NCBI RefSeq assembly: GCF_020531985.1
Contig: NZ_JAJAVQ010000004.1
Coordinates: forward strand, 1 to 64,000
Direction of reading: 5' to 3'
Origin: Rheinheimera aquimaris
GTDB lineage: Bacteria > Pseudomonadota > Gammaproteobacteria > Enterobacterales > Alteromonadaceae
DNA: 64,000 nt
The first letter of the stretch is position 1, and every line of letters begins with the position of its first letter. Below, in pieces: positions 1,300-59,016 of the stretch. Under the pieces are notes generated by a model that saw only the letters and a list, made by a program, of their open reading frames with translations, did no database searches and was not told the DNA's origin. The position numbers and the translations under genes were made by a program.

Positions 1300-1563
1300 T
1301 TACAGTTTATTTACCTGGTTAATCGATGAGCGATAATCGATACCTAACCACTGACAGATCTCCAAAAACTCTAGGATATCCAATCCCCGAATACCCTGTT
1401 CAATTTTGCCAAAGTAGCTATGCGGCTTGCCGCTGATGGCTGATAGGTCACGCATTGTTAGCCCCTTAGCATTTCGCTGCTCCCGCAACCAATTACCCAG
1501 TGCAATTCGCTTTGGGCTGGCTTTTAGGTGGGCTTCACCCCGCTTTGGTTTGTATGCTTCCAT
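1300..1563 (-). CDS. XRE-family helix-turn-helix regulator
   Basis: 87 residues with a Cro/CI-type HTH over about residues 20-75: LGNWLREQRNAKGLTMRDLS, then SGKPHSYFGKIEQG as turn and recognition helix. There is no other domain. The ATG at 1563 shares a base with the stop of the DUF2787 gene (TAATG), and GGAGGTGA lies ten bases upstream, so the two genes are translationally coupled. It is the last gene of a leftward block that also holds DUF2787, RadC-like and DUF6641-like genes, a set often found together on gammaproteobacterial islands. It probably regulates the island; its target is unknown. Confidence 0.8.
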   Translation of the reverse strand: MEAYKPKRGEAHLKASPKRIALGNWLREQRNAKGLTMRDLSAISGKPHSYFGKIEQGIRGLDILEFLEICQWLGIDYRSSINQVNKL

Positions 1564-1970
1564 TAAATCACCTCCACCTCAAAAACTGCCATATCCAGCC
1601 AGTAGGTTAAAAAGTTGTCTTCCCATATCGGATAGATTTCTCTGGCGACTTCGATAGGGTAGTAGCCGGTCATGTCCTGAAAGGTGCCAGCGATAAACTC
1701 GAAGTCCAAAGACTTCACCAGCTCTGCACAATCACCAATACCGGCATAACAAAAGTCGGTGATGTAACAGATGTCATAACGGCCACTGGTGCCGGTAAGC
1801 AGTATTTCAACCGGGTGGTAGCCGCCATCTTCTGCACTGTATTTCGGGTCCCGAAAGTTTACGCAGACAAATTCTGCCAGTGGCTCTCGGTGTGGCTCGA
1901 TGGCTTTAATCAGTGCATCGATAAATCGCTTTGTTACAGGCAAAGCTAAGCCCTCGTACTGAATACGCAT
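1563..1970 (-). CDS. DUF2787 family protein
   Basis: 135 residues carrying the conserved pattern of DUF2787: VNFRDPKYSAEDGGYHPVEI (about 38-57), CYITDFCYAG (about 68-77) and a C-terminal FLTYWLDM segment. The family has no known biochemical role; members occur on islands and conjugative elements of Vibrio and Shewanella relatives. The start at 1970 has AGGAG spaced nine bases upstream. No signal peptide or membrane segment is seen, so it is probably cytoplasmic. It overlaps the downstream XRE gene by one base and follows the RadC-like gene by 28 bases. Confidence 0.8.
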   Translation of the reverse strand: MRIQYEGLALPVTKRFIDALIKAIEPHREPLAEFVCVNFRDPKYSAEDGGYHPVEILLTGTSGRYDICYITDFCYAGIGDCAELVKSLDFEFIAGTFQDMTGYYPIEVAREIYPIWEDNFLTYWLDMAVFEVEVI

Positions 1971-1998: not shown

Positions 1999-2445
1999 TT
2001 ACTTAAAAATATGAGCGTGGGTTTGTCGCATGCTAGTGTGTTGGTTAAGGCCGATAATCACATGGTCCAGCACGGTGATATTTAAGATGTTGCCAATCTC
2101 GATGACCCGCTCGGTAAAGCGCACATCGGCTTGGCTCGGCTCACTTAACCCCGATGGGTGATTGTGAATTAGGATAACCGCCTTTAAGTTTAAAATGACT
2201 GCCGTGCGTAGCAGCTCAACCGGCCTTGTGCTGATTGCATCGGCAGTGCCTTTTGCTACCACTTCAAAGCAATTCACTTCGTGCTGTGCGGTGAGGTTCA
2301 CCACGATAAACACTTCTTTGGTTTCATGCTTGAGGTAGTCAAAAAGCTTACCGATGACTTCAGGGCTGTTAGCTGTTTTACCGGTAATGTCACAGTCCAC
2401 CTCTTTAAAGCGGTAGGTCAGTTCTATTTCTCGCAGGGTTGCCAA
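1999..2445 (-). CDS. RadC-like JAB-domain protein
   Basis: 148 residues that cover only the JAB/MPN (RadC C-terminal) domain; the helix-hairpin-helix part of chromosomal RadC is absent. The metal-site motif is present as HNHPSG...SQAD (about residues 105-118), the HxH-x7-S-xx-D signature. The start is an unusual TTG at 2445 supported by GGAGGTG five to six bases upstream. Such short RadC proteins are frequent on genomic islands next to DUF2787 and integrase genes. Despite the name, a role in DNA repair is doubtful; a metal-dependent hydrolase or DNA-transaction role is possible. Confidence 0.85.
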   Translation of the reverse strand: MATLREIELTYRFKEVDCDITGKTANSPEVIGKLFDYLKHETKEVFIVVNLTAQHEVNCFEVVAKGTADAISTRPVELLRTAVILNLKAVILIHNHPSGLSEPSQADVRFTERVIEIGNILNITVLDHVIIGLNQHTSMRQTHAHIFK

Positions 2446-2523: not shown

Positions 2524-2982
2524 TCACTTTTTATCCGTGGTTTTGGCTTTAGGCGGTTTCGGAGGTTTTGCCGGTGACAGTTGTAAGATCTGCGCATCCA
2601 GCTCACCGCTCTCAACGGCCTTGATGATGGTGCTAATGACGGTCGGTAAGTCTTCTTTCTTACCGACATCGATTGCCGCTTTGCCTTTTTCCAGCTCCAG
2701 CGTTTTTAGCCCAACTTTGATTTCAAAGTAGTAGTGCTCGTTGTCATCAAAGTACCAGGGGCGAACCGCTTTGCGTGTGCGTACGGTTTTGCGCTCACCG
2801 GTTTCGGGGTCTTTCACCTTTTTATCTTTATAGGCTTCATAAGCCTGACCATCTAACATGGCCTGCGCCATTGCCTGCTGCTCATCCAGCTTTTCAATCA
2901 GTTTTAGGCGCTTGCCTAAGATGGGTGGTTTGGGCTCAATTTTTGGGCGAGCGATAACCTTGAGCGAACTCAATATAGACAT
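2524..2982 (-). CDS. DUF6641-like island protein
   Basis: 152 residues, highly charged, with a proline/lysine-rich tail (PAKPPKPPKAK). The sequence has an N-terminal SILSSLKVIARP segment, a central helix rich in Gln/Ala, a repeat of basic residues (KTVRTRKAVRPWYFDDNE) and a segment YYFEIKVGLKTLELEKGK. It resembles the DUF6641 family as I remember it, whose members sit beside RadC and DUF2787 genes on islands; no function is established. The start at 2982 has AAGGAAA upstream. No membrane segment is present. The family name should be verified by a profile search. Confidence 0.6.
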   Translation of the reverse strand: MSILSSLKVIARPKIEPKPPILGKRLKLIEKLDEQQAMAQAMLDGQAYEAYKDKKVKDPETGERKTVRTRKAVRPWYFDDNEHYYFEIKVGLKTLELEKGKAAIDVGKKEDLPTVISTIIKAVESGELDAQILQLSPAKPPKPPKAKTTDKK

Positions 2983-3014: not shown

Positions 3015-5027
3015 CTATTTCACAAAGCCGATGGGGGTTTTAGGTTGCTTGCGGTTGTTTTCATCGGTCAGCACGGCAAGCGCTAACTGACGATGTTCGT
3101 GCGCTGCGCTAAAGCGCAAACGACGGGTTAAAAGTGCAAAATCGCCGGGTGTTAATCTGCTGAGCGAACTTAGCTGCGCAGTCTCTAACGTCGATAGCTG
3201 TGGAACGCTCACAGTGCGCTTGTACAGCGTTAAAACTTGCGGCGTGCTCAAGTAGTCACACTGCAACTTGAAATCAAAGCGGCGTAATATAGCGCTATCC
3301 AAAGCTGTTTCGAAATTAGTTGCAGCGAACAGCGGGTAGCTAAAGCACTCAAGCTGCGCCAGCAGTTCGTTAACCACTTGCCGCTCGTGGTGCATGTTTA
3401 GCCGCTCCCGGCTGGTCAGTAGGCTGTCTACTTCATCAAGCAGTAACATCTGGTTGTTGCGGTGTGCTTGCTGAAAGAGCCGTGCGATTTGTTTCTCAGA
3501 GCCGCCGACATATTTACTCAGCACATCCGAGCTTAATACCCGCTTCAGTTCACGCTTATGTTGCTCGGCCAAGTGATGCGCCAGCGCGGTTTTACCGGTG
3601 CCCGGCGGACCACTAATCAACACCCGAATTGGCGCATTAGTCGCAACAGCATGGTTTATCTGCTTGAGTACCGCACCGGACTGTTTGATGTTCAGTAGCG
3701 ACATATCAAACGCCAGCTCTGCCTGATAACGCATACTGTCATCCCACAAGTCGCAGGCGGTCAGGCTGTTTTCAATCACATCTTCAATAACGCCTTGTGC
3801 CAGATTACGCTTCACGCCCAGTGTTCTGGCAACATGGGAGGCATTAGCAAGTAGTGCCGGTGTCAGGTTAGGGGTTTTACTCAGCTGAACATGAAACTCA
3901 CTGCTTACCCCTAAACCTTTAAACTCAGTGCGGCTCATTTTCTCCAGCACTTCATCTTTGGGGGCATTAACCGGCATCACCAGCTTAAAGCGGCGAATGT
4001 AACTGTGCTCTAACTGGTCAACGTAGTTGGTTATCCAGATAGTCGGCACAGCATTTTGCTCTAACAGACGATGCACAGACTCTTTGGAGTAATGCGTATC
4101 CGCACTGTAAAACAAGCTTTCACATTCATCGACCAGCAACATCATGGCGCTGCCGCCCATTAAGCTTTGCAACATAGTGATGTACTGAATACGCTGGGTG
4201 TCTGAGCTTTTTGCACCAAACTCGTTTGACAAAAAGCCATCGTCCATACGCATATTGCGGGCTTCATATAGTGGAACGGATAAACTCTGCGCCAACACTT
4301 TAGCCAGTGCCGTTTTACCGCTACCGGCTTCGCCATACAAAAGAATGTTTACGCCACTAAGCTGCTGACTCACGGCCTCGGCCAGATAGCCTTGCAATAG
4401 CGCCACATCGACATACTCAAAATCCTTAGTCGATAACTGAGTAGGCTCACTGGCGCATAACACATGCTGCAGCAACTGCGATTTACTCTCTATCGTCTCG
4501 TTGGTCAGCACATAAAGCATACTGGCCGGAATCGTGATGTCTTGAAGCTCATTCAGATACCGGTCTACCAGTATTACGCCGTTTTGCTGCAACACCGATA
4601 AGCTATGTGAGACATCCGTCGCCGTTAAGCCCGACACATCACACATCAGCTTTTCCAGTGCTTTGTCTTCAAAGTAACCGCCCACAAAATCGACCAGCTG
4701 ATTAAGCCCTTGATTGACGTTCATCAACACCAGAAAGCCCAAAGCAGGACCAAACGTAGCTTCCACGCCAAACAAGGTGCATAGTGTGGCAAGGTTCTGC
4801 TCAACACGCTCAGTCAGCTCTGGCTTGGTATCAACAAAGGACAGGTGTTTAAGGGCGGTTTCACTTGTCAGCTCAGCATCTTCAAACGACTGGCCGGTAA
4901 TGCGTTTTAAAATGGTGCGGTTAACGTTTGTCATTGCGACATCAACGTCTATCAGGCTAATTACTTGTTTGGCATAAAAGGCTGCCAGGTAATGACAGGG
5001 AAGCGGTGTACGGGGTGGGGTAATCAT
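3015..5027 (-). CDS. Double AAA+ ATPase (two Cdc48-like ATPase domains)
   Basis: 670 residues. Domain 1 has Walker A GEAGSGKT (232-239), Walker B LLVDE (297-301) and RRF (345-347). Domain 2 has Walker A GPPGTGKT (473-480), Walker B LLLDE (528-532), a sensor Asn at 571 and RRF (582-584). Both ATPase sites look intact. The first 225 residues form a helical N-terminal domain with no clear match. The start at 5027 is favoured because GGGAGG lies six bases upstream, formed by the last codons of the integrase gene, which ends three bases before. An unfoldase or assembly/disassembly motor acting on the neighbouring recombinase or helicase is plausible but unproven. Confidence 0.85.
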   Translation of the reverse strand: MITPPRTPLPCHYLAAFYAKQVISLIDVDVAMTNVNRTILKRITGQSFEDAELTSETALKHLSFVDTKPELTERVEQNLATLCTLFGVEATFGPALGFLVLMNVNQGLNQLVDFVGGYFEDKALEKLMCDVSGLTATDVSHSLSVLQQNGVILVDRYLNELQDITIPASMLYVLTNETIESKSQLLQHVLCASEPTQLSTKDFEYVDVALLQGYLAEAVSQQLSGVNILLYGEAGSGKTALAKVLAQSLSVPLYEARNMRMDDGFLSNEFGAKSSDTQRIQYITMLQSLMGGSAMMLLVDECESLFYSADTHYSKESVHRLLEQNAVPTIWITNYVDQLEHSYIRRFKLVMPVNAPKDEVLEKMSRTEFKGLGVSSEFHVQLSKTPNLTPALLANASHVARTLGVKRNLAQGVIEDVIENSLTACDLWDDSMRYQAELAFDMSLLNIKQSGAVLKQINHAVATNAPIRVLISGPPGTGKTALAHHLAEQHKRELKRVLSSDVLSKYVGGSEKQIARLFQQAHRNNQMLLLDEVDSLLTSRERLNMHHERQVVNELLAQLECFSYPLFAATNFETALDSAILRRFDFKLQCDYLSTPQVLTLYKRTVSVPQLSTLETAQLSSLSRLTPGDFALLTRRLRFSAAHEHRQLALAVLTDENNRKQPKTPIGFVK

Positions 5028-5029
5028 CG

Positions 5030-5947
5030 TTACCTCCCGCTATTACCATTACTGCTGCCATAACTTAACGACCTCGCCGCCTGCTGCATAAACTGCATAT
5101 CCCGCTTATCGTAGATGGTGGTCGTGGTAATAGACGCATGACCGGCCATTTGCCGCACGGTATTTAAATCGACATTCTGCTCAAGTAAGCGGGTAATAAA
5201 GGTACGGCGTAAATCATGCGGTGAGGCATTTTCAACGCCGATTCGCTGCAACTTGGTTTTAACCAGCCTCAGTACCAGCCACACACTTAGTCCGGTAGTC
5301 AGTTTCACTTTGCCGCTGGCCTGCACCGGACAAAACAGATAACCGGGCTGCCTTGAGCGCAGTGTTAACCAGTTCTTTAAGTGGTTAAGGCTCCAATCAG
5401 GTAAGAACACCGTGCGGGATTTATTGCCTTTACCGTTACGCACCAACAGCGCCTGCTTATTCGCATCGAAGTCTTTAAGCTCAAGCGCCACCAGTTCACT
5501 GCGACGAAGACCGGTGCCAAGCAGTACCGCAAACATCGAAATGTTACGTATGCCTGTTTCGGTTCTTGAGCGTTCTAGTAGCGCAAATAGCGCCTGAACC
5601 TGCTTCTGTGTTAGCGCGGTGCCGGGATATTCAGCGTGTTTTAGCTGACTCAGACTACTTAGCTGACTTAACTGCTCGCTATCGGCCAGCTTCATCATCA
5701 CAGCGATTTTGACGATATTGCGAATAGCTACTTGTGCCCGGTTAATTGAGCGTGCAGCCCAACCAGCGTGTTGCAGCATGGCACGTATTTGCAGCATGTC
5801 TTGATAGTTAACTTGGTTGAAGCGGCTAACATCGTCAACCGGCCAATTCATGATTTTAGCGACACTTCGAAGCTGTGACGAAATAGACGTTCTGCTATTA
5901 GCCGACAGCCTGCTTAGGTAAAGCGAATACGGCGAAGCTGTACTCAT
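5030..5947 (-). CDS. XerD-like tyrosine recombinase
   Basis: 305 residues with a SAM-like core-binding domain (about 5-90) and a catalytic domain. Catalytic residues visible are Arg148 (TGLRRSEL), Lys173 or nearby (GKGNK), His244 and Arg247 (HDLRRTF), His270 (GHASITTT) and Tyr279 (TIYDKR). All six needed positions are present, so it should be active in strand exchange. It is the compact Xer/integron type rather than the long tRNA-integrase type found at 56-59 kb. Its stop codon lies against the start of the double AAA+ gene, so the two are coupled. It may act in resolution or mobility of the island; its target site is not identified. Confidence 0.9.
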   Translation of the reverse strand: MSTASPYSLYLSRLSANSRTSISSQLRSVAKIMNWPVDDVSRFNQVNYQDMLQIRAMLQHAGWAARSINRAQVAIRNIVKIAVMMKLADSEQLSQLSSLSQLKHAEYPGTALTQKQVQALFALLERSRTETGIRNISMFAVLLGTGLRRSELVALELKDFDANKQALLVRNGKGNKSRTVFLPDWSLNHLKNWLTLRSRQPGYLFCPVQASGKVKLTTGLSVWLVLRLVKTKLQRIGVENASPHDLRRTFITRLLEQNVDLNTVRQMAGHASITTTTIYDKRDMQFMQQAARSLSYGSSNGNSGR

Positions 5948-6096: not shown

Positions 6097-8853
6097 CTAC
6101 TTATAAAGTGAGTGGTGAATGTCATGCAGAATGTTGGTGGTACTTGCTTTTTTACTCTGACCTTTTGAAGTGTCGTAGTAAGGCAAACAGCTTGGGTTGT
6201 AGAAAACTTTTAGTCTGTCTTTGGCACGCGAACATGCCACATACAGATTGCACATTTCCTGCTTTCGGGCAGAGAGTTTGCCTTTGCCAAGTGACGTGTC
6301 AAAAACAAGCGTAATGTTAGCTTCTAACCCTTTACCTTTGTGAGTGTTGGTAAAAATAATGTCCATCCCCTCTATTATTTCTTTTGCGGCTTCCTTAAGT
6401 TCATCAATGAGTTTTTTATAATTTGATAAAACAAGAACGCTTTTCTTTGTGCTGAGCGCTTTAATCTTTTTCAGATCTTGAAGCAGCTCTGCCTTAGCTT
6501 GCGTAAAGTCAGAAACAGGTTTTAATACTGGCAGATACTGACTCTTATCTTGTGATATTGCTAACGACAACGTACCGCTAATACCTTGACGAATAGCATT
6601 ACAAAAATTAACGATGCCGTTATTGGATCGATAACACTTCCTCAGCGCGAACTTCTTTGCGTTGTGAAACATCATTGTGAATTTTTCTAATACCGCAACC
6701 TTTGCGCCACGAAAGCCAAATATCGACTGTGCCGGGTCTCCAACGCAGAAGATATTGGCTTTCTGTTGGCTCAATGCTTTTAGAATTTCCCACTGCACTT
6801 CACTTGAATCTTGCGCTTCATCCAGAAAAATATATTTCTGCTGTTGCGCGAGAGTTTTCGCAAACTCGACGTTTTCCAGATTCGTTTTCATAATAAGTAA
6901 AATGTCATTAAAGTCTTGCAGACGCATCCGCTTCTTGTGCTTGCTATAACGCAGGAACACTCGACATACCGATTCTTCATACTCAAGAAGTTCAGGCGCG
7001 AGCTTTTTAATAGATGTAGGAACGTGTGGTTTGGCAAAGTTAGTACTGTGATTGATTACACTTACCACCTTCTTACGCAGCGAAACACTGCCACAGATCT
7101 CCTGATTACCTACACTGTCTATAAAGCGATTAATCAATGTTTCTGCATCATTAGCGTTGAGTATTGTGAGATCACTAAACTTCTTCATTGTCTGATTACA
7201 CCAACGACTGAACGTGCTCACCGTCACACGAATAGCGCCAGGACACTTTTTTAGCAGTTGCTTTTTAAAGTGATTCGCTGCTTTATTAGTAAAGGCAAGC
7301 ACGCAGATTTGCTCTGGTGATACACCTTTTTGTTCTATAAGGTAACTGATACGCTTAATCATCGTCGTCGTTTTGCCAGAGCCAGGTGTACCCTCAACAT
7401 AAATATTCTGCACGTCCGATGTGATTATTTCGTCCTGATCTGAGCAGCGTTCATGCAGTATTTCCTGAAATGGCAGAAGTGAATCTCGCGCTTCATTAAC
7501 TGCCTGTGTGTAGTTGAAGTTCGATGTAAAACCAACTTTCTGAGGCGCCAATATGCTTGACTGCAGTTGAGTTAAATGCGGTAAAAATGCAGCCAGTACT
7601 TTCTCTTCATCAAACTTTAGGTAGGCGTCTTCCGCACTGAACAGCTCCCTTAGCTTTTTCATTTCGTCAACCGACTTGTCACGAACTAACTTTTTTAGTA
7701 TGCGAGGTGATACATGCTGTAGTGCTGATGGTTTAACAAATATCGTATTACCAAACTCAGGTTTTAGTTGCGCCAACTGGTCAAGGTGAAGTGTAACTTT
7801 TTTCCCAATACCCGACTTTTTATCCCCAGTTAAATAAAACTCATCTTCATGTTTAAACTCATAGCGTGCGACTGGAAGTAGTTTGCTATACGCTTTGTTA
7901 TACCCACCGATTTCTTCTAGTAAGTCGTTAATATTTTCTTGAAGTCCTACCACAATTTCTTCAAATTGTTTGGTCAGTTCTTTTGCCAATTTGTCATACA
8001 CAGATGCACGTGAATTATCTTCACTCCCAAGGTTTGTCGTCATGGTCAGGCAGTTTTGATCTTCGGGATAACAGGAGCCTGCGCTGACTTTTTTATTAAT
8101 GGTATCGATAAAGCAAAACAGCTGAGATACGCCAAACATGTTCATGCCTAAATCGACTCGAAGCACTCGTGAGTTGTTCATCAGCTGCGGGTAACGATTG
8201 GTTTTTAAGACAGACTTTAAGTGTGAAAACACTAGATCTATCATCCACGGTGCGAAACGTGAGGGAATAAACTCAATTTCTAAATTGTGAGGCAAGGTGC
8301 GGCCAGAATTTCTTGGATGTGATTTGTCTGCGAAATATATGTTCACATATTTATACGCATCACCATCAACTTTAAGTTCGAAGCACTTAGTGAAAAAGGG
8401 CTTGGTGTCAGCCTTTTTAAAACCCTTATTTTTATTTTTAGCGGCGAGACTGGTAACAGTCAGGTGGCTATTTCTGGTCTTAGTTTTTACTCTTAAGATC
8501 CCGTCTTCTTTAGATAGCAGTGAGCAGATATCCTTTTCTGTCAGATCCACTGCTAGAGTTAGATAGTCGATATCAACCAATTCAGCACTGATATTCTGAA
8601 CGTAGTTAGCTATAAGCTGTTCCTGTTCTGTTGCAATATCATGGTCGGTTATGACATCTATAACTTGTGCAGTGTTATTGACATGTTGGAACTGTGGCAC
8701 AGTAGTACATGCATTAATTTTGCGCTGATGCGCTGTTTTAATAGCATTCGTTAACTCATTCTTTTTAAAAAAATCATTCAAAAATTCATTGTGAAAAAGT
8801 GAGGTTCGCGCAAAAGCGCTATTTGGCTCATCTATGGGTGGTCTAATTCGCAT
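6097..8853 (-). CDS. UvrD/Rep-superfamily helicase with a long N-terminal domain
   Basis: 918 residues. The C-terminal half is a superfamily 1 helicase: Walker A GTPGSGKT (488-495), AFTNKAANHFKKQL (motif Ia), DEAQD (678-682, motif II), GDPAQSIFGFRGA (705-717, motif III), KCYRSN (motif IV), THKGKGLEA (motif V) and YVACSRAKDRL (motif VI). The first 430 residues do not belong to UvrD. They contain LRVDLGMNMFG (231-241), VYDKLAKEL (285-293) and VARYEFKH (328-335), an order that recalls filamentous-phage and plasmid replication initiators. This would make the protein a Rep-helicase fusion, which is inference only. GGAAG lies eight bases before the ATG. It probably serves replication or transfer of the element. 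Confidence 0.85.
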   Translation of the reverse strand: MRIRPPIDEPNSAFARTSLFHNEFLNDFFKKNELTNAIKTAHQRKINACTTVPQFQHVNNTAQVIDVITDHDIATEQEQLIANYVQNISAELVDIDYLTLAVDLTEKDICSLLSKEDGILRVKTKTRNSHLTVTSLAAKNKNKGFKKADTKPFFTKCFELKVDGDAYKYVNIYFADKSHPRNSGRTLPHNLEIEFIPSRFAPWMIDLVFSHLKSVLKTNRYPQLMNNSRVLRVDLGMNMFGVSQLFCFIDTINKKVSAGSCYPEDQNCLTMTTNLGSEDNSRASVYDKLAKELTKQFEEIVVGLQENINDLLEEIGGYNKAYSKLLPVARYEFKHEDEFYLTGDKKSGIGKKVTLHLDQLAQLKPEFGNTIFVKPSALQHVSPRILKKLVRDKSVDEMKKLRELFSAEDAYLKFDEEKVLAAFLPHLTQLQSSILAPQKVGFTSNFNYTQAVNEARDSLLPFQEILHERCSDQDEIITSDVQNIYVEGTPGSGKTTTMIKRISYLIEQKGVSPEQICVLAFTNKAANHFKKQLLKKCPGAIRVTVSTFSRWCNQTMKKFSDLTILNANDAETLINRFIDSVGNQEICGSVSLRKKVVSVINHSTNFAKPHVPTSIKKLAPELLEYEESVCRVFLRYSKHKKRMRLQDFNDILLIMKTNLENVEFAKTLAQQQKYIFLDEAQDSSEVQWEILKALSQQKANIFCVGDPAQSIFGFRGAKVAVLEKFTMMFHNAKKFALRKCYRSNNGIVNFCNAIRQGISGTLSLAISQDKSQYLPVLKPVSDFTQAKAELLQDLKKIKALSTKKSVLVLSNYKKLIDELKEAAKEIIEGMDIIFTNTHKGKGLEANITLVFDTSLGKGKLSARKQEMCNLYVACSRAKDRLKVFYNPSCLPYYDTSKGQSKKASTTNILHDIHHSLYK

Positions 8854-8931
8854 GGAATATCACTTCCTTAAAAACAGTAATTGGTCAAATTTGTACGACG
8901 TTTAAGAGAAATTAGTGATGGGAGTGGTTGT

Positions 8932-9086: not shown

Positions 9087-9752
9087 CTAACTGGCATCCT
9101 TTAAGGCTTTTATAAGCTTGCGGATAACGCTTTTCTTGAATTGGCTCTTCAGCGTCTCTGCAAGTGCTGCCAGAGAATTTTCAGAGGTGTTAAATTTAGA
9201 CAGAATTGCTTCAAGTTGCTGAACAGGCTCTTGCGCAATCGATGAAGGCTGTTTTTTAAGTTTCAAAGCTATCATTGCTTCAACAACCAAATTTTTAGTG
9301 ACTGATTTCTTGGTGTTCAGAGTTTTTGTTTTTTCCAGTATGTAATGAAGTACGTTTTCGCATTGTTCTTTAGTCAGCTTGTTCATTTGAAAAAGTGGAG
9401 CGTCGTTAAATTTACCGACCATCTTGAGACCACCAATCCGATTTTCCACTCGTGCAGCGACTAACCGCCGGTTGAGAGTTGAGTATTTAGCTCCTAAATT
9501 TGTTAAAAGAAAATTCTTCATTGACGAGCAACCAAATTGCCGCCAGCCCTCACGAAGTTCGATTGCAAGCAGAGTGAGTTTTTGAAGGATAGATGTATTT
9601 TCAATTGATTCAATCACCATAGCCTTATGGTACTTACTAAACTCAAAATGTTTATTTTGAAGCGCTTTCTCTATCAGCTCGTAGTGCTCTGAATTTACTT
9701 CCGGCATTTGAATTTTAAATTTAACTTTGCGTTTTTCAATTTTGCGGTTCAT
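9087..9752 (-). CDS. Hypothetical HTH-like protein of the island core
   Basis: 221 residues, basic and almost wholly helical. The region from about residue 60 to 130 reads LAIELREGWRQFGCSSMKNFL, followed by a Ser/Thr-Leu-Asn-Arg-Arg recognition-like helix (STLNRRLVAARVENRIGG) and NKLTKEQCENVL. This layout is common in plasmid and phage DNA-binding proteins that control replication or partition. No catalytic motif or membrane segment is seen. The ATG at 9752 has AGGAC eight bases upstream. It diverges from the RHH gene across a repeat-rich region and has its own terminator, so it is probably a regulator or replication accessory protein of the element. Function unassigned. Confidence 0.6.
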   Translation of the reverse strand: MNRKIEKRKVKFKIQMPEVNSEHYELIEKALQNKHFEFSKYHKAMVIESIENTSILQKLTLLAIELREGWRQFGCSSMKNFLLTNLGAKYSTLNRRLVAARVENRIGGLKMVGKFNDAPLFQMNKLTKEQCENVLHYILEKTKTLNTKKSVTKNLVVEAMIALKLKKQPSSIAQEPVQQLEAILSKFNTSENSLAALAETLKSQFKKSVIRKLIKALKDAS

Positions 9753-10157
9753 ATGAGTTGTCCTAATTCAAAGTTTATTCACCTGTCTCGGTAAGTGGTT
9801 ACCGATCAGTTTTTGATTTACAGATTTGATTTGGTATGCATGTTGACGAAAATGCGAACTACACACATTCATCAGATGCACATACCGAATGGCCTAGCGA
9901 TTACTGATTTACAGTTTTAAGAAATTAGGAATTGCAAAAAATAAATGAAGAATTTTCGGCGTTGAATTATCAGTTGAGAGCTCTCAGCTATCTGCATTTT
10001 AATGAAATTCAACTTACTTAAATCATCGCAGTTACGGCGATTTTTTGTTGAGATGAAGCTTTATTTATTCGTCGTTACTGCGATAAGATTTGCGATGAAC
10101 TTAGTTCGCAGTAACGGCGAATATGTCAATCATTGAGAGCTCTCAATTGGGGTGTTT
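9753..10157. promoter_or_regulatory. Divergent repeat-rich region, possible origin or shared operator
   Basis: This 405-base AT-rich stretch has no gene. It holds two copies of the palindrome TGAGAGCTCTCA, at 9975-9986 and 10132-10147, the second extended to 16 bases. Between them lie three copies of a 15-mer of the form TCGCAGTAACGGCGA: 10026-10040 and 10106-10120 on the + strand and 10069-10083 on the minus strand, each differing by one base. The second palindrome ends just before the GGGG ribosome site of the RHH gene, so binding there would block it. The arrangement fits either operators for the two divergent regulators or an iteron-type origin next to the Rep-like helicase. Confidence 0.6.
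10026..10120. repeat. Three 15-bp repeats, TCGCAGTAACGGCGA type
   Basis: Copies at 10026-10040 (TCGCAGTTACGGCGA), 10069-10083 (inverted, TCGCAGTAACGACGA) and 10106-10120 (TCGCAGTAACGGCGA). Centres are about 43 and 37 bases apart, close to four turns of DNA. Each copy is itself a partial palindrome, TCGC-N7-GCGA. Confidence 0.75.
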
Positions 10158-56451: not shown

Positions 56452-57726
56452 CTAAACAAACTTACGTTTCTCATAATTTTCAGCAAACCAAGCATAACTC
56501 CTAATATTTGACTCCTTGGCTTTCTTACTGATTTCACGGCGCTTCAACGAGTCAGGCTCTTTTTGCTCATACATCACGCCACTAAATTCCTGCCGGAACA
56601 TCGTCGGCAAAAGGTGGCTGTAAGTTCTGTCAATCATCTCTATACTCGTGCCGCACTGTTTAGCCAGTGCTGCGTAATCCGCTTTGCTTTTTAGGTTCCA
56701 AGTAATGTAAGAATGGCGAAGTGAGTACAGGGTACGCTCACCATATGGGCTTTGCCTTAGGTTCAGCTTTTCCAGAACATAGGTGAATTTCTTGCTGAGA
56801 CTTTTAGCACTAGAGCCGTCAGCAAGCACGAATACCAAGTCATCTGCTTTTCGGTCTGGAAAGCGTTCTACTAACTGCTCTAGGTTAGCCACAAAATCGC
56901 TTCGTACCACAACTTGCCGAGTACCGGTATATAAAGTAGTTTTGCCTTTACGAACGGCTACGGTGATTTCTGGTACACCATCTGCCAATCTAAAGCTGAT
57001 ATCGCGCCACTGTACGTGTTCAATCTCTGTGCCTGGCCTCATACCCGTTGCCAGCGCAAAGTCGATGTAGTCTTCCATCAGCTCAAGAAGCATTTTGCTT
57101 TTCTTGTTTTTAGTCCGTTGCATCTCGTCAGTAATAAAGTCAGAGATTTTGCGATACTCTTCCCATGTGAAAGCGGCACGACGTTCTTGCCGTTTGCCGT
57201 CAGTTTCAAAAGCTGGAATATGGTATTTGGTGATTTGGCCTTTTCTTAATGCCTTGTCGTAAATTTTACTGAGTGCAGCATTGTGGCTTTGTAAAGTAGA
57301 TTTTGATGGTTGCCGGCCAAACTTCACTTCGCGCCAACGATGGAAGTTGTCCATATCAGACTGCGTGATTTGGTCTATGCGCTGGTCTTTGAAAAATGGG
57401 ATATGGTAGTTCAGCAGAATGCCTTTGTAGATTGAGTTATTCTTCTTTGAAACGCCTTTATCAATCAACGCCTCAAGATCAGCAATGACCTCATTCGCAA
57501 GTGCGGTAAACGGTTGAGCACCAGCCGCAATACCAAGTTTTATCTCTGCTCGACGCTTGTACATTGCATCAATTGCTACAACTTTCGCTTTTTCTAACTC
57601 GGTCTCGCCGGTCGAAAAGGTAACGTGCTTTTTATCGACTTTAAAGCGGGCGTACCAGCGCTTTGAATTGGTCTGAGTATAAAGGTATAACCCCTCCATT
57701 ACTGCAACTCGTTCCTGATACGCCAA
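56452..57726 (-). CDS. Tyrosine integrase, second of a tandem pair
   Basis: 424 residues. The start is a TTG at 57726 backed by AGGAGG five bases upstream. The N-terminal arm-binding and SAM-like domains cover 1-180. The catalytic part shows Arg in TGMRPGTEIEHV, a Lys in VRKGKTTLYTGTR, His-Arg in YSLRHSYITW and the nucleophile Tyr in TSIEMIDRTYSHL. All key residues are present. It shares the same domain layout and about 40-45 percent of residues with the next gene, which ends 12 bases upstream, so the pair forms one operon. It probably acts with its partner in integration or excision at the tRNA-Leu site. Confidence 0.9.
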   Translation of the reverse strand: MAYQERVAVMEGLYLYTQTNSKRWYARFKVDKKHVTFSTGETELEKAKVVAIDAMYKRRAEIKLGIAAGAQPFTALANEVIADLEALIDKGVSKKNNSIYKGILLNYHIPFFKDQRIDQITQSDMDNFHRWREVKFGRQPSKSTLQSHNAALSKIYDKALRKGQITKYHIPAFETDGKRQERRAAFTWEEYRKISDFITDEMQRTKNKKSKMLLELMEDYIDFALATGMRPGTEIEHVQWRDISFRLADGVPEITVAVRKGKTTLYTGTRQVVVRSDFVANLEQLVERFPDRKADDLVFVLADGSSAKSLSKKFTYVLEKLNLRQSPYGERTLYSLRHSYITWNLKSKADYAALAKQCGTSIEMIDRTYSHLLPTMFRQEFSGVMYEQKEPDSLKRREISKKAKESNIRSYAWFAENYEKRKFV

Positions 57727-57738
57727 CGCTGCCTCCTG

Positions 57739-59016
57739 CTAGATATAGCCTCGATGCTTATAGTTGTATGCCCATTCGTCCATGCGTTGCCGTAACTGCT
57801 CATCGTAAGTTACGTCTTCAAACTGCCGAACGACTCTCTCTTTGGTTTCCAGCTCAATCCCGGACAATTGCCGACCGAACATTCTCGGGATGACGTGGCT
57901 ATAATGTTGCTCAATCATTTGAATGCCAGTGCCACACTGCCGCGCTAACACATCAATACTGACGTTTTGTGCTGCCAGTTCCCACGTAATGTAGCTGTGC
58001 CTTAGCGAATATAAACTTCTTTGCCCATATTGTGAATTCTTCAACTCAATCAATTCTAAAGCATTATCGAAATGTCTGTTCATTTCCTTAGAGGTTGAGC
58101 CATCAGAGAGACGGAACAGCTGCTCAGTACCAACTCGATCAGGGAAACGGTCTGATAGTCGGTTCAGCACTTTGACTATTGCTGCTTTACACACGATCTC
58201 GCGGGTGCCGGTATATTTTGTCGTCTTGCCCTTCCTCACAGTGACATAAAACCGTATCTGCGAGTCATCCCGTTCAGGGTGTAAATCAGCCCATGTTAGA
58301 TTATCCATTTCTGAGCCAGGCCGCATGCCAGTCAGAATAGCAAAATCCATGTAGTCTATAAGTAACTCGCGGAGTTGGCGGGTTTTCTCCCGTCTGCCTT
58401 CCTTGGCCATCTGTACTACTTGTTCTCTTACTCGCGCATATTCATCTACCGTGAATGCGGCACGCCTTGAACCACTAGCGCCTTTGTTTTCCAGAGTCGG
58501 TACTTGAGATATCAGCATGTACTTACGTTTGACCGCAAAATCGAATACCATTTGCATTGCTGAGTTGTGGTTTTGGATCGTGGATTTAGCCGGTATCCTG
58601 CCTAACTCTTTGACACGCCACACGTCAAAATCGTCAAGTTGATCTGCATCGATACGCGTAATGTGGGTGTCACCAAAGAAAGGGATATGGTATTTATTGA
58701 GTGCACCAATATAGTCATCATAGATGACTTTTCCGGTGCCTGTTGCCATTGCTACTCTCATTTGGTGGATGACTTTTTCGGCAATATACGAGAAGCGCTT
58801 AGATTCGATTACAAAATTATTCGTCTCAAAGCGGATCTCATATTCGATTAGGAGGCGGTGAGCTTTTGCGATTGCCTCTGGTAAGTCACGGGTTTTGGTA
58901 GAACGGGACAGGTAGACGTTTTTGATTTTTAACCGAGCAATCCAGTTGTAACAGTTAGATTGCTTGTGGATTTGAAGATTAGGTGTAAGCTGGTGTTTTT
59001 CAAGGATTTTTGCCAT
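57739..59016 (-). CDS. Tyrosine integrase, first of a tandem pair
   Basis: 425 residues from the ATG at 59016 with AGGAG upstream. Catalytic residues: Arg in TGMRPGSEMDNL, Lys in VRKGKTTKYTGTR, His-Arg in YSLRHSYITWEL, His in the CGTGIQM region lost as usual for this group, and Tyr in IEQHYSHVIPRM. It is the integrase nearest to the tRNA-Leu scar, about 110 bases from it, the normal place for the gene that carries out site-specific integration. The relic at 63040-63485 is most like this protein (shared HYSxVIPRMF). Confidence 0.92.
   Translation of the reverse strand: MAKILEKHQLTPNLQIHKQSNCYNWIARLKIKNVYLSRSTKTRDLPEAIAKAHRLLIEYEIRFETNNFVIESKRFSYIAEKVIHQMRVAMATGTGKVIYDDYIGALNKYHIPFFGDTHITRIDADQLDDFDVWRVKELGRIPAKSTIQNHNSAMQMVFDFAVKRKYMLISQVPTLENKGASGSRRAAFTVDEYARVREQVVQMAKEGRREKTRQLRELLIDYMDFAILTGMRPGSEMDNLTWADLHPERDDSQIRFYVTVRKGKTTKYTGTREIVCKAAIVKVLNRLSDRFPDRVGTEQLFRLSDGSTSKEMNRHFDNALELIELKNSQYGQRSLYSLRHSYITWELAAQNVSIDVLARQCGTGIQMIEQHYSHVIPRMFGRQLSGIELETKERVVRQFEDVTYDEQLRQRMDEWAYNYKHRGYI

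Follow-up and report, generated by a model that had tools for sequence, protein, structure and literature searches.

The first 64,000 nt of contig NZ_JAJAVQ010000004.1 from Rheinheimera aquimaris (the whole stretch analysed, hereafter called the window, which begins at the contig end) contain a minus-strand gene in which a domain resembling replication initiators and a UvrD-type helicase are encoded in one frame.

6097 to 8853, minus strand: fused Rep-like initiator and UvrD helicase gene (918 aa, ATG start, single open frame of 918 codons)
6196 to 7440, minus strand: UvrD-type helicase of superfamily 1A (SF1A), residues 472–886 (Walker A, DExxD, and later motifs conserved)

The 918-residue product was confirmed to consist of an intact UvrD-type superfamily 1 (SF1) helicase behind a separate N-terminal half. 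In the Pfam scan, UvrD-helicase (PF00580) matched residues 472–728 with an E-value of 2.5e-48 (165.6 bits, compared with a cut-off of 23), and PHROG 1967 ('DNA helicase') covers residues 435–766. The motifs GxPGSGKT, DExQD, GDPAQS, and FRGA as well as R742, G842, and R876 are invariant in all five aligned fused proteins, and the solved structures closest to this half are PcrA and UvrD (best PDB chain 1pjr, 4.4e-26). SF1A motifs are common to this half and the UvrD, PcrA, and Rep helicases, but the helicase part of the window protein comprises only ~450 aa and is located behind the Rep-like domain. An earlier sequence-only reading of this gene had regarded the C-terminal half as a complete SF1 helicase and the first 430 residues as foreign to UvrD, and both statements hold: the SF1 motifs are intact, and no helicase family in the Pfam and PHROGs matches touches residues 1–430. 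When searched alone, these residues gave nothing credible in Pfam (best E-value, 0.47) or PHROGs (0.3), only five low matches to unrelated molecules in PDB (best, 0.0081, to a viral fusion glycoprotein), and no helicase accessory or nuclease domain in any of the three collections.

Matches spanning both halves were found in at least 5 of 98 related genomes, including that of the window; among the matches listed, the remaining ones start at residue 415 or later. The four other full-length fused relatives, from Rheinheimera sp. D18, Arsukibacterium indicum, Alishewanella jeotgali, and R. nanhaiensis (all ranked in the genus of the window), share 86% (one protein) or about 31–34% (the other three) identity with the window protein, and an Idiomarina metagenome-assembled genome contains a further relative. 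Profile A2, made from the first five N-terminal halves, matched in 7 of 394 genomes of the order, and a 12-row mixed profile (A3) matched in 36 of 395 genomes of the family and in 1 of 369 genomes of the class (the window's own); these genome sets, including the 98 related genomes, overlap, and their counts are not summable. Many of the matches to the N-terminal half are frames of ~320–480 codons without a helicase. From the 42 loci examined (41 plus the window; L098 has no usable frame and L103 repeats L030), 40 proteins were obtained, of which 14 are fused and 26 are not. The 14 fused proteins are distinct and originate from different genomes (one is cut by a contig end), so the fusion is not an artefact of a single assembly; it is real and old. 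In the closest pair, namely the window protein and its D18 relative, the ratio of nonsynonymous to synonymous substitution rates (dN/dS) is 0.148 for residues 1–440 and 0.175 for residues 465–918, indicating constraint on both halves.

Profile A4, constructed exclusively from 14 stand-alone proteins and free of fused ones, matched residues 28–436 of the window protein at 2.7e-29, and the stand-alone proteins are therefore true relatives of its N-terminal half. Relatives were not found by scans of viral contigs with the whole protein or with profiles A2, A7, and A8, and no record in the plasmid and phage collections covers 80% of the protein; the best 40 of 993 plasmid records and the best 30 of 164 phage records match only from residue 457 onward. 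Likewise, stand-alone protein L035 was unmatched in both collections and stand-alone protein L034 was unmatched in the plasmid collection. At one locus (L073, genome G548, 6334–8816, minus strand), the rep gene and a gene for a 444-aa UvrD protein are separate and overlap by 4 bp (ATGA), representing a natural split version. In the tree of Rep proteins (39 rows, with the truncated L097 left out), the fused proteins cluster and require two label changes, and a single origin is not rejected (approximately unbiased test, P = 0.363); stand-alone proteins L034 and L071 fall inside the fused group, and the split pair of L073 is placed near its base on a long branch. A history of adjacent and then fused genes fits the tree and the split pair, although it is not proven by them.

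A DUF3987 gene directly adjoins the stand-alone rep genes of L034, L035, L071, L073, L074, L078, L079, and L086. This gene, which is helicase-like according to PHROGs, thus lies directly beside 8 of the 26 unfused and none of the 14 fused rep genes (some contigs are short), a distribution that looks like an exchange of helicase partners inside one island family. We rejected a general rule by which stand-alone Reps would always be accompanied by a helicase gene, as DUF3987 accounts for only these 8 of 26.

The evidence supports the assignment of the N-terminal half as a very divergent relative of the Rep_trans and gene-II rolling-circle initiators. Searched against PDB (177,635 distinct sequences, E ≤ 10), profile A4 gave only three matches, all of which are Rep_trans initiators (4cwe, 0.017; 4cwc, 0.087; and 4cij, 0.68). 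Profile–profile comparisons by hhalign used 8 Rep_trans and 12 Phage_CRI sequences from the same order (near-copies and the weakest or truncated matches were excluded) together with 33 of the 40 family proteins, leaving out seven stand-alone proteins (six among the most divergent and one truncated). This family set matched Rep_trans (PF02486) with a probability of 81% and an E-value of 1.2e-5, and the 19 stand-alone proteins by themselves reached 89%. Homology at the profile level (81–89%) thus lies above the value obtained for comparison between Rep_trans and Phage_CRI (75%), two families for which Carr et al. (cited in PMC5714925) propose a possibly close relationship. In the controls, 20 in total (eight further island genes plus two reversed and ten column-shuffled alignments), the probability did not exceed 1.3%. 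Among single sequences, 5 of the 14 stand-alone proteins in A4 weakly match rolling-circle initiator families, namely Phage_CRI (6e-4 and 2.4e-3), Rep_trans (1.7e-4), and RepD-like_N (3.9e-4 and 0.079), all under the curated Pfam cut-offs, and 2 of the 14 match PHROG 453 'replication initiation protein' (best, 0.0017). The best scores among stand-alone homologues were 21.7 bits for Rep_trans (cut-off, 29.6) and 20.0 bits for Phage_CRI (PF05144; cut-off, 21.7). No initiator-family match was found in the Pfam scan of four further stand-alone proteins, and a scan of the window's own genome with PF02486 gave no match. NCBIfam yielded only unrelated matches under the threshold. The initiator families named in the sequence-only reading were gene II and RepA; the weak matches of stand-alone homologues bear out the former, together with Rep_trans and RepD-like_N, while the Pfam scans yielded no RepA-type family.

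The pattern of conserved residues agrees with this assignment. In RepD-type proteins, Tyr191 is the nucleophile and Asp46, Asp142, and Glu214 are metal ligands (Carr et al. 2016, PMC4797284, available part); RepD residues were paired with those of the window protein by motif order, with the Rep_trans motifs taken from PMC5714925.

7819 to 8592, minus strand: Rep_trans-like catalytic core, residues 88–345 (from motifs and from profile and fold matches; probable limits)
8566 to 8568, minus strand: Asp96, motif N', proposed metal ligand (RepD D46; 39 of 39 homologues with a letter there; the fortieth is truncated)
8152 to 8154, minus strand: Asp234, motif I RxD, proposed metal ligand (RepD D142; 37 of 40, with His in two and Glu in one)
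7996 to 7998, minus strand: Tyr286, motif III, proposed nucleophile (RepD Y191; 40 of 40)
7858 to 7860, minus strand: Glu332, motif IV RxE, proposed metal ligand (RepD E214; 40 of 40)
7534 to 7818, minus strand: C-terminal part of the Rep half, residues 346–440, common to the stand-alone homologues and possibly DNA binding

The peptides LRVDLGMNMFG, VYDKLAKEL, and VARYEFKH, whose order had been read as initiator-like from the sequence, are present at residues ~231–241, 285–293, and 328–335, and their key letters (R232, D234, Y286, K288, R330, and E332), which are invariant in the first five aligned proteins and conserved in most of the 40, correspond to Rep_trans motifs I, III, and IV. In motif I (R232-V-D234 in the window), Asp is present in 37 of 40 proteins and Arg in 34 of the 39 with a letter at that position. 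Lys288, two residues after the tyrosine of motif III, is found in 30 of 40 homologues and in all 14 fused proteins, and all 14 also have Lys at +5 and Glu at +6. Arg330 of motif IV is conserved in 35 of 40 and replaced by Lys in the other 5; the leading W/L of this motif is V in the window. Of the catalytic Tyr/His residues named in the sequence-only reading, the tyrosine is present in 40 of 40, whereas an HUH-type His-x-His motif is absent, with no His among the invariant or near-invariant columns of the N-terminal half. A catalytic His is not expected, because the chemistry would be of the Rep_trans type (Tyr plus an Asp/Asp/Glu metal site) and not of the HUH type.

Structure prediction points in the same direction. 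AlphaFold2 modelling of residues 1–460 (six sequences) gave a mean predicted local distance difference test (pLDDT) score of 40, too poor for a structure search. A second model, of residues 60–350 from six fused sequences without templates, reached a pLDDT of 56 and a predicted template modelling (pTM) score of 0.60. Its top two Foldseek matches among 350,542 PDB chains are both RepDE (4cwc, E-value 0.011 and probability 0.97; 4cwe, 0.040 and 0.84), and its best match in BFVD is an inovirus protein (0.010 and 0.63). This core model may be taken as independent support, although not proof, of a Rep_trans fold from the window's own sequence.

The gene is located in a mobile element that recurs around its homologues. 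Neighbour counts cover the 40 rep loci, within the stretches examined around each rep gene.

5030 to 5947, minus strand: tyrosine recombinase of the island (PF00589, 1.4e-31; homologue in 30 of 40 rep loci)
3015 to 5027, minus strand: double-AAA ATPase, island core (PF00004, 4.3e-38, two stretches; homologue in 36 of 40)
2524 to 2982, minus strand: DUF6641 protein, island core (homologue in 34 of 40)
1999 to 2445, minus strand: RadC-like protein (homologue in 11 of 40)
1563 to 1970, minus strand: DUF2787 protein, island core (homologue in 27 of 40)
9087 to 9752, minus strand: upstream gene of 221 aa (weakly related genes close to some other rep genes)

Beside 37 of the 40 rep genes there are two or more of the genes for integrase, double-AAA ATPase, DUF6641, and DUF2787, and none of them were found at L088 and L093, which are on short contigs; the fused and stand-alone Reps belong to a recurring island. 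The cargo of the window includes genes for copper handling (a multicopper oxidase, CopB, and a CusS-type sensor kinase) and for other metals (ArsR with a low-molecular-weight phosphatase, a P-type ATPase bearing a heavy-metal-associated (HMA) domain, resistance-nodulation-division (RND) efflux, a MerA-like HMA reductase, cation efflux, and FTR1). The double-AAA ATPase matches the PADLOC model of the IetA defence ATPase (3.8e-37) and PHROG 10401. Farther away, a recombinase-like open reading frame (ORF) at 56452–57726 (PF00589, 1.4e-6) adjoins a minus-strand ORF of similar size at 57739–59016, and this pair may represent another mobile element or the distal end of the island.

Several sequence elements upstream of the gene are candidate parts of an origin.

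8897 to 8906, minus strand: CTTAAAYGTC motif, preceding the start codon by 53 nt (a candidate for a promoter, an operator, or a nick site)
9974 to 9986, no strand assigned: palindrome TTGAGAGCTCTCA, copy 1
10133 to 10145, no strand assigned: palindrome TTGAGAGCTCTCA, copy 2
10026 to 10120, no strand assigned: three 15-bp iteron-like repeats TCGCAGTWACGRCGA in alternating orientation (10026, 10069, and 10106)

The rep loci (1,236,828 nt, both strands) contain CTTAAAYGTC seven times, and in five of these cases it precedes rep by no more than 100 nt; the motif, which was found post hoc, precedes five fused genes by 42–75 nt, and these represent only three lineages. The TCGCAGTWACGRCGA repeats sit between the two TTGAGAGCTCTCA palindromes, upstream of the neighbouring 221-aa gene, and with up to three mismatches this pattern has eight matches in the window compared with 1.41 expected; these comprise the three sites, each read on both strands, and two matches at other places. 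In several relatives, related palindromes are found ahead of rep. Palindromes of the GCGARYTCGC type are denser in the 1.3 kb ending just inside each rep start (9 in 49,069 nt) than in the remainder of the 40 loci (12 in 569,345 nt), although the nine include two adjacent copies at a single locus, two from sister elements, and one that is 810 nt away, and a distance of ~1 kb beyond the rep start is seen for several of the other 12. By enumeration with one mismatch, TGCGAGTTCGCA occurs in 6 of the 14 upstream regions of fused genes, compared with a maximum of 4 in 10 mononucleotide shuffles; shorter words in these regions show no excess over shuffles. The GCGARYTCGC palindromes and TGCGAGTTCGCA may be operators instead of origins. 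Two further elements were observed at individual loci: a perfect 16+16 nt palindrome located ~100 nt upstream of the fused rep at L037:6422–6453, whose core TGCGAGCTCGCA is also present at a distant relative (L100:7841), and a repeat array with a 12-nt period at L038:5433–5804, which lies within the gene preceding the fused rep and encodes an acidic segment.

Taken together, the product of the gene is probably a bifunctional protein that initiates rolling-circle replication of an integrative island. The data establish the kinship of the N-terminal half with stand-alone island proteins, its conserved active-site pattern, the fusion itself, and the repeated island context; we infer nicking, replication, and the position of the origin in the following scheme. 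The adjacent tyrosine recombinase would, as its family suggests, excise the island as a circle. The Rep_trans-like domain would then bind the island origin, where Tyr286 would attack one strand, aided by a divalent metal that the conserved Asp96, Asp234, and Glu332 may hold. The covalently attached UvrD-type helicase, whose motifs are intact, would unwind the DNA from the nick, so that the island would not need to recruit host PcrA or UvrD as pT181-family plasmids do. Finally, host polymerase would copy the circle and the Rep domain would re-close the displaced strand, as is established for the family.

A number of observations weigh against this interpretation. At the level of sequence, the N-terminal half in the window has no Pfam match to any initiator family, and no scanned single sequence passes the curated cut-off of such a family; 9 of the 14 stand-alone proteins in A4 show no initiator-family match, with unrelated families appearing singly from 0.005 upward. 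The mixed profile A3 found no match in PDB at E ≤ 10, and the 14 fused proteins by themselves matched Rep_trans with a probability of only 3.1% in hhalign (score 28.0, compared with 21.2 for the best control). At the level of structure, the RepDE matches of Foldseek have a template modelling (TM) score of only ~0.26 and derive from a poor model (pLDDT 56), and in VIA-align, although 4cwe ranked first (Z 6.8, 156 residues), an unrelated fold reached Z 6.6 over 94 residues and many unrelated folds are listed at similar Z. In the active site, motif II (T/SxY/ExG) is altered in the window, which has TTNLG; the position of RepD Tyr178 is Asn274 in the window and Asn in the D18 relative, whereas the remaining 12 fused proteins (of 14) and 16 of the 26 stand-alone proteins have Tyr. 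Motif III reads YxKxxKE compared with YxKxxE in Rep_trans, RepD Glu196 being replaced by Lys291 followed by Glu292, and the Arg at the RepD R189 position is not conserved. The fused Reps of L037 and L038 carry Glu-x-His instead of Arg-x-Asp in motif I, and the proposed metal site would therefore have a His ligand or be altered in these two. As for the origin, the exact TCGCAGTWACGRCGA pattern was found, among 139 loci, only in the three copies of this one locus, all from the window's own genome, and all of the upstream motifs are candidate origin elements only.

Rep_trans initiators form one superfamily with the MOBT relaxases (PMC5704250 and PMC6499999, available parts), such as NicK of ICEBs1, Orf20 of Tn916, and RelSt3, and such enzymes can serve in both replication and transfer; the MOBT elements are also integrative elements that pair a Rep_trans nickase with an SF1 helicase. 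The protein could accordingly be mainly a MOBT-like mobilization relaxase, whose Rep domain would nick a transfer origin and whose helicase would unwind the strand for helper-driven conjugation. This appears unlikely: no coupling protein of type PF02534 or PF12696 was found in the whole genome of the window (controls were positive; TcpA/FtsK-like types were not searched for), and no type IV secretion system coupling protein is present among the 28 window proteins scanned with Pfam. A helper could be external. The absence of these two coupling protein families favours replication over self-transfer, though a helper might mobilize the island.

The deviations in the active site, namely the Asn in place of the motif II Tyr, the loss at the R189 position, and the His in place of the motif I Asp in two fused relatives, would also suit a protein that has retained the Rep fold and DNA binding but lost nicking activity, and instead loads the helicase at the island origin or at stalled forks. 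We consider this improbable, since pure DNA binding would not require the nucleophile and the metal-binding Glu, both present in 40 of 40 proteins, or the first Asp, present in 39 of 39. A Gabija-type defence helicase with an unrecognized sensor or nuclease domain, considered because PADLOC ties the helicase half to GajB (RTasHel and GajB models, 4.2e-40, 3.7e-39, and weaker) and the neighbouring AAA ATPase to IetA, is very improbable, as UvrD and AAA folds are common to many non-defence proteins, the PADLOC helicase models begin at residue 462 or later among the matches listed, no GajA-like match was found among 10 window proteins scanned, the AbiEi (3.5e-5) and PDC-M43B (1.5e-8) matches are weak and involve a GntR-type regulator and a CusS-type kinase, and the N-terminal half has island-borne stand-alone homologues with Rep signatures.

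The known systems closest to this putative replication initiator are the Rep_trans initiators of pT181-family plasmids (RepD/RepC; 4cwc, 4cwe, and 4cij), which are its best PDB relatives by profile and fold and share the same order of motifs, N', I (RxD), II (TxY/NxG), III (YxK), and IV (RxE), as well as the proposed Tyr plus Asp/Asp/Glu metal site. The PcrA helicase recruited by RepD is that of the host. The window protein, in contrast, carries its helicase in the same chain and not in trans, is encoded by an integrative island, lies far under the Pfam cut-off, and has an altered motif II Tyr and motif III Glu. Similarity to the gene II proteins of filamentous phages (Phage_CRI) is seen in the sub-threshold matches of stand-alone homologues and in the inovirus protein as the best viral fold match, but the family profile matches Phage_CRI less well (11–15%) than Rep_trans, and to our knowledge gene II has no fused helicase. 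In the MOBT elements, the helicase is host PcrA aided by HelP. Nickases and helicases also occur in one chain in TraI-type relaxase-helicases, Helitron RepHel, and CRESS-DNA virus Rep. These proteins, like the Rep_2-helicase proteins, differ from the window protein in that their nickases are HUH enzymes combined with other helicase types (SF3, RecD-like, or Pif1-like). The Rep_2-helicase proteins, found in streptococcal integrative and mobilizable elements, likewise unite nickase and helicase in one chain (review, PMC5704250, available part). A Rep_trans–helicase fusion is not mentioned in the available parts of PMC5714925 and PMC6499999, and neither a Rep_trans–UvrD fusion nor the island family appeared among the matches listed in a search of titles and abstract starts of the open-access literature, a scope outside which most subscription journals fall.

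We lean, though only slightly, towards a broader proposal, in which a single-chain non-HUH nickase-helicase combining Rep_trans chemistry with a UvrD motor would drive the autonomous rolling-circle replication of a hitherto undescribed family of integrative islands from Alteromonadaceae-type bacteria. The Rep of this family occurs alone, next to DUF3987, next to a UvrD gene to which it is translationally coupled, or in a fusion with UvrD, and these arrangements would record a turn from dependence on host PcrA to a self-contained engine. Nicking and unwinding, which in well-studied plasmids are split between the plasmid's own protein and a host helicase, appear to be joined here in one island protein. 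RepD, which with its pT181-type relatives recruits PcrA in trans (PMC4797284), is with PcrA a model for the transfer of DNA from a plasmid initiator to an SF1 helicase, partners that usually exist as distinct proteins and have to find each other; the natural fusion and the split, overlapping pair in a relative would offer a one-chain system for studying this hand-over. If the interpretation is correct, metal-resistance genomic islands can carry their own rolling-circle engine, which would bear on their persistence after excision and on their spread.

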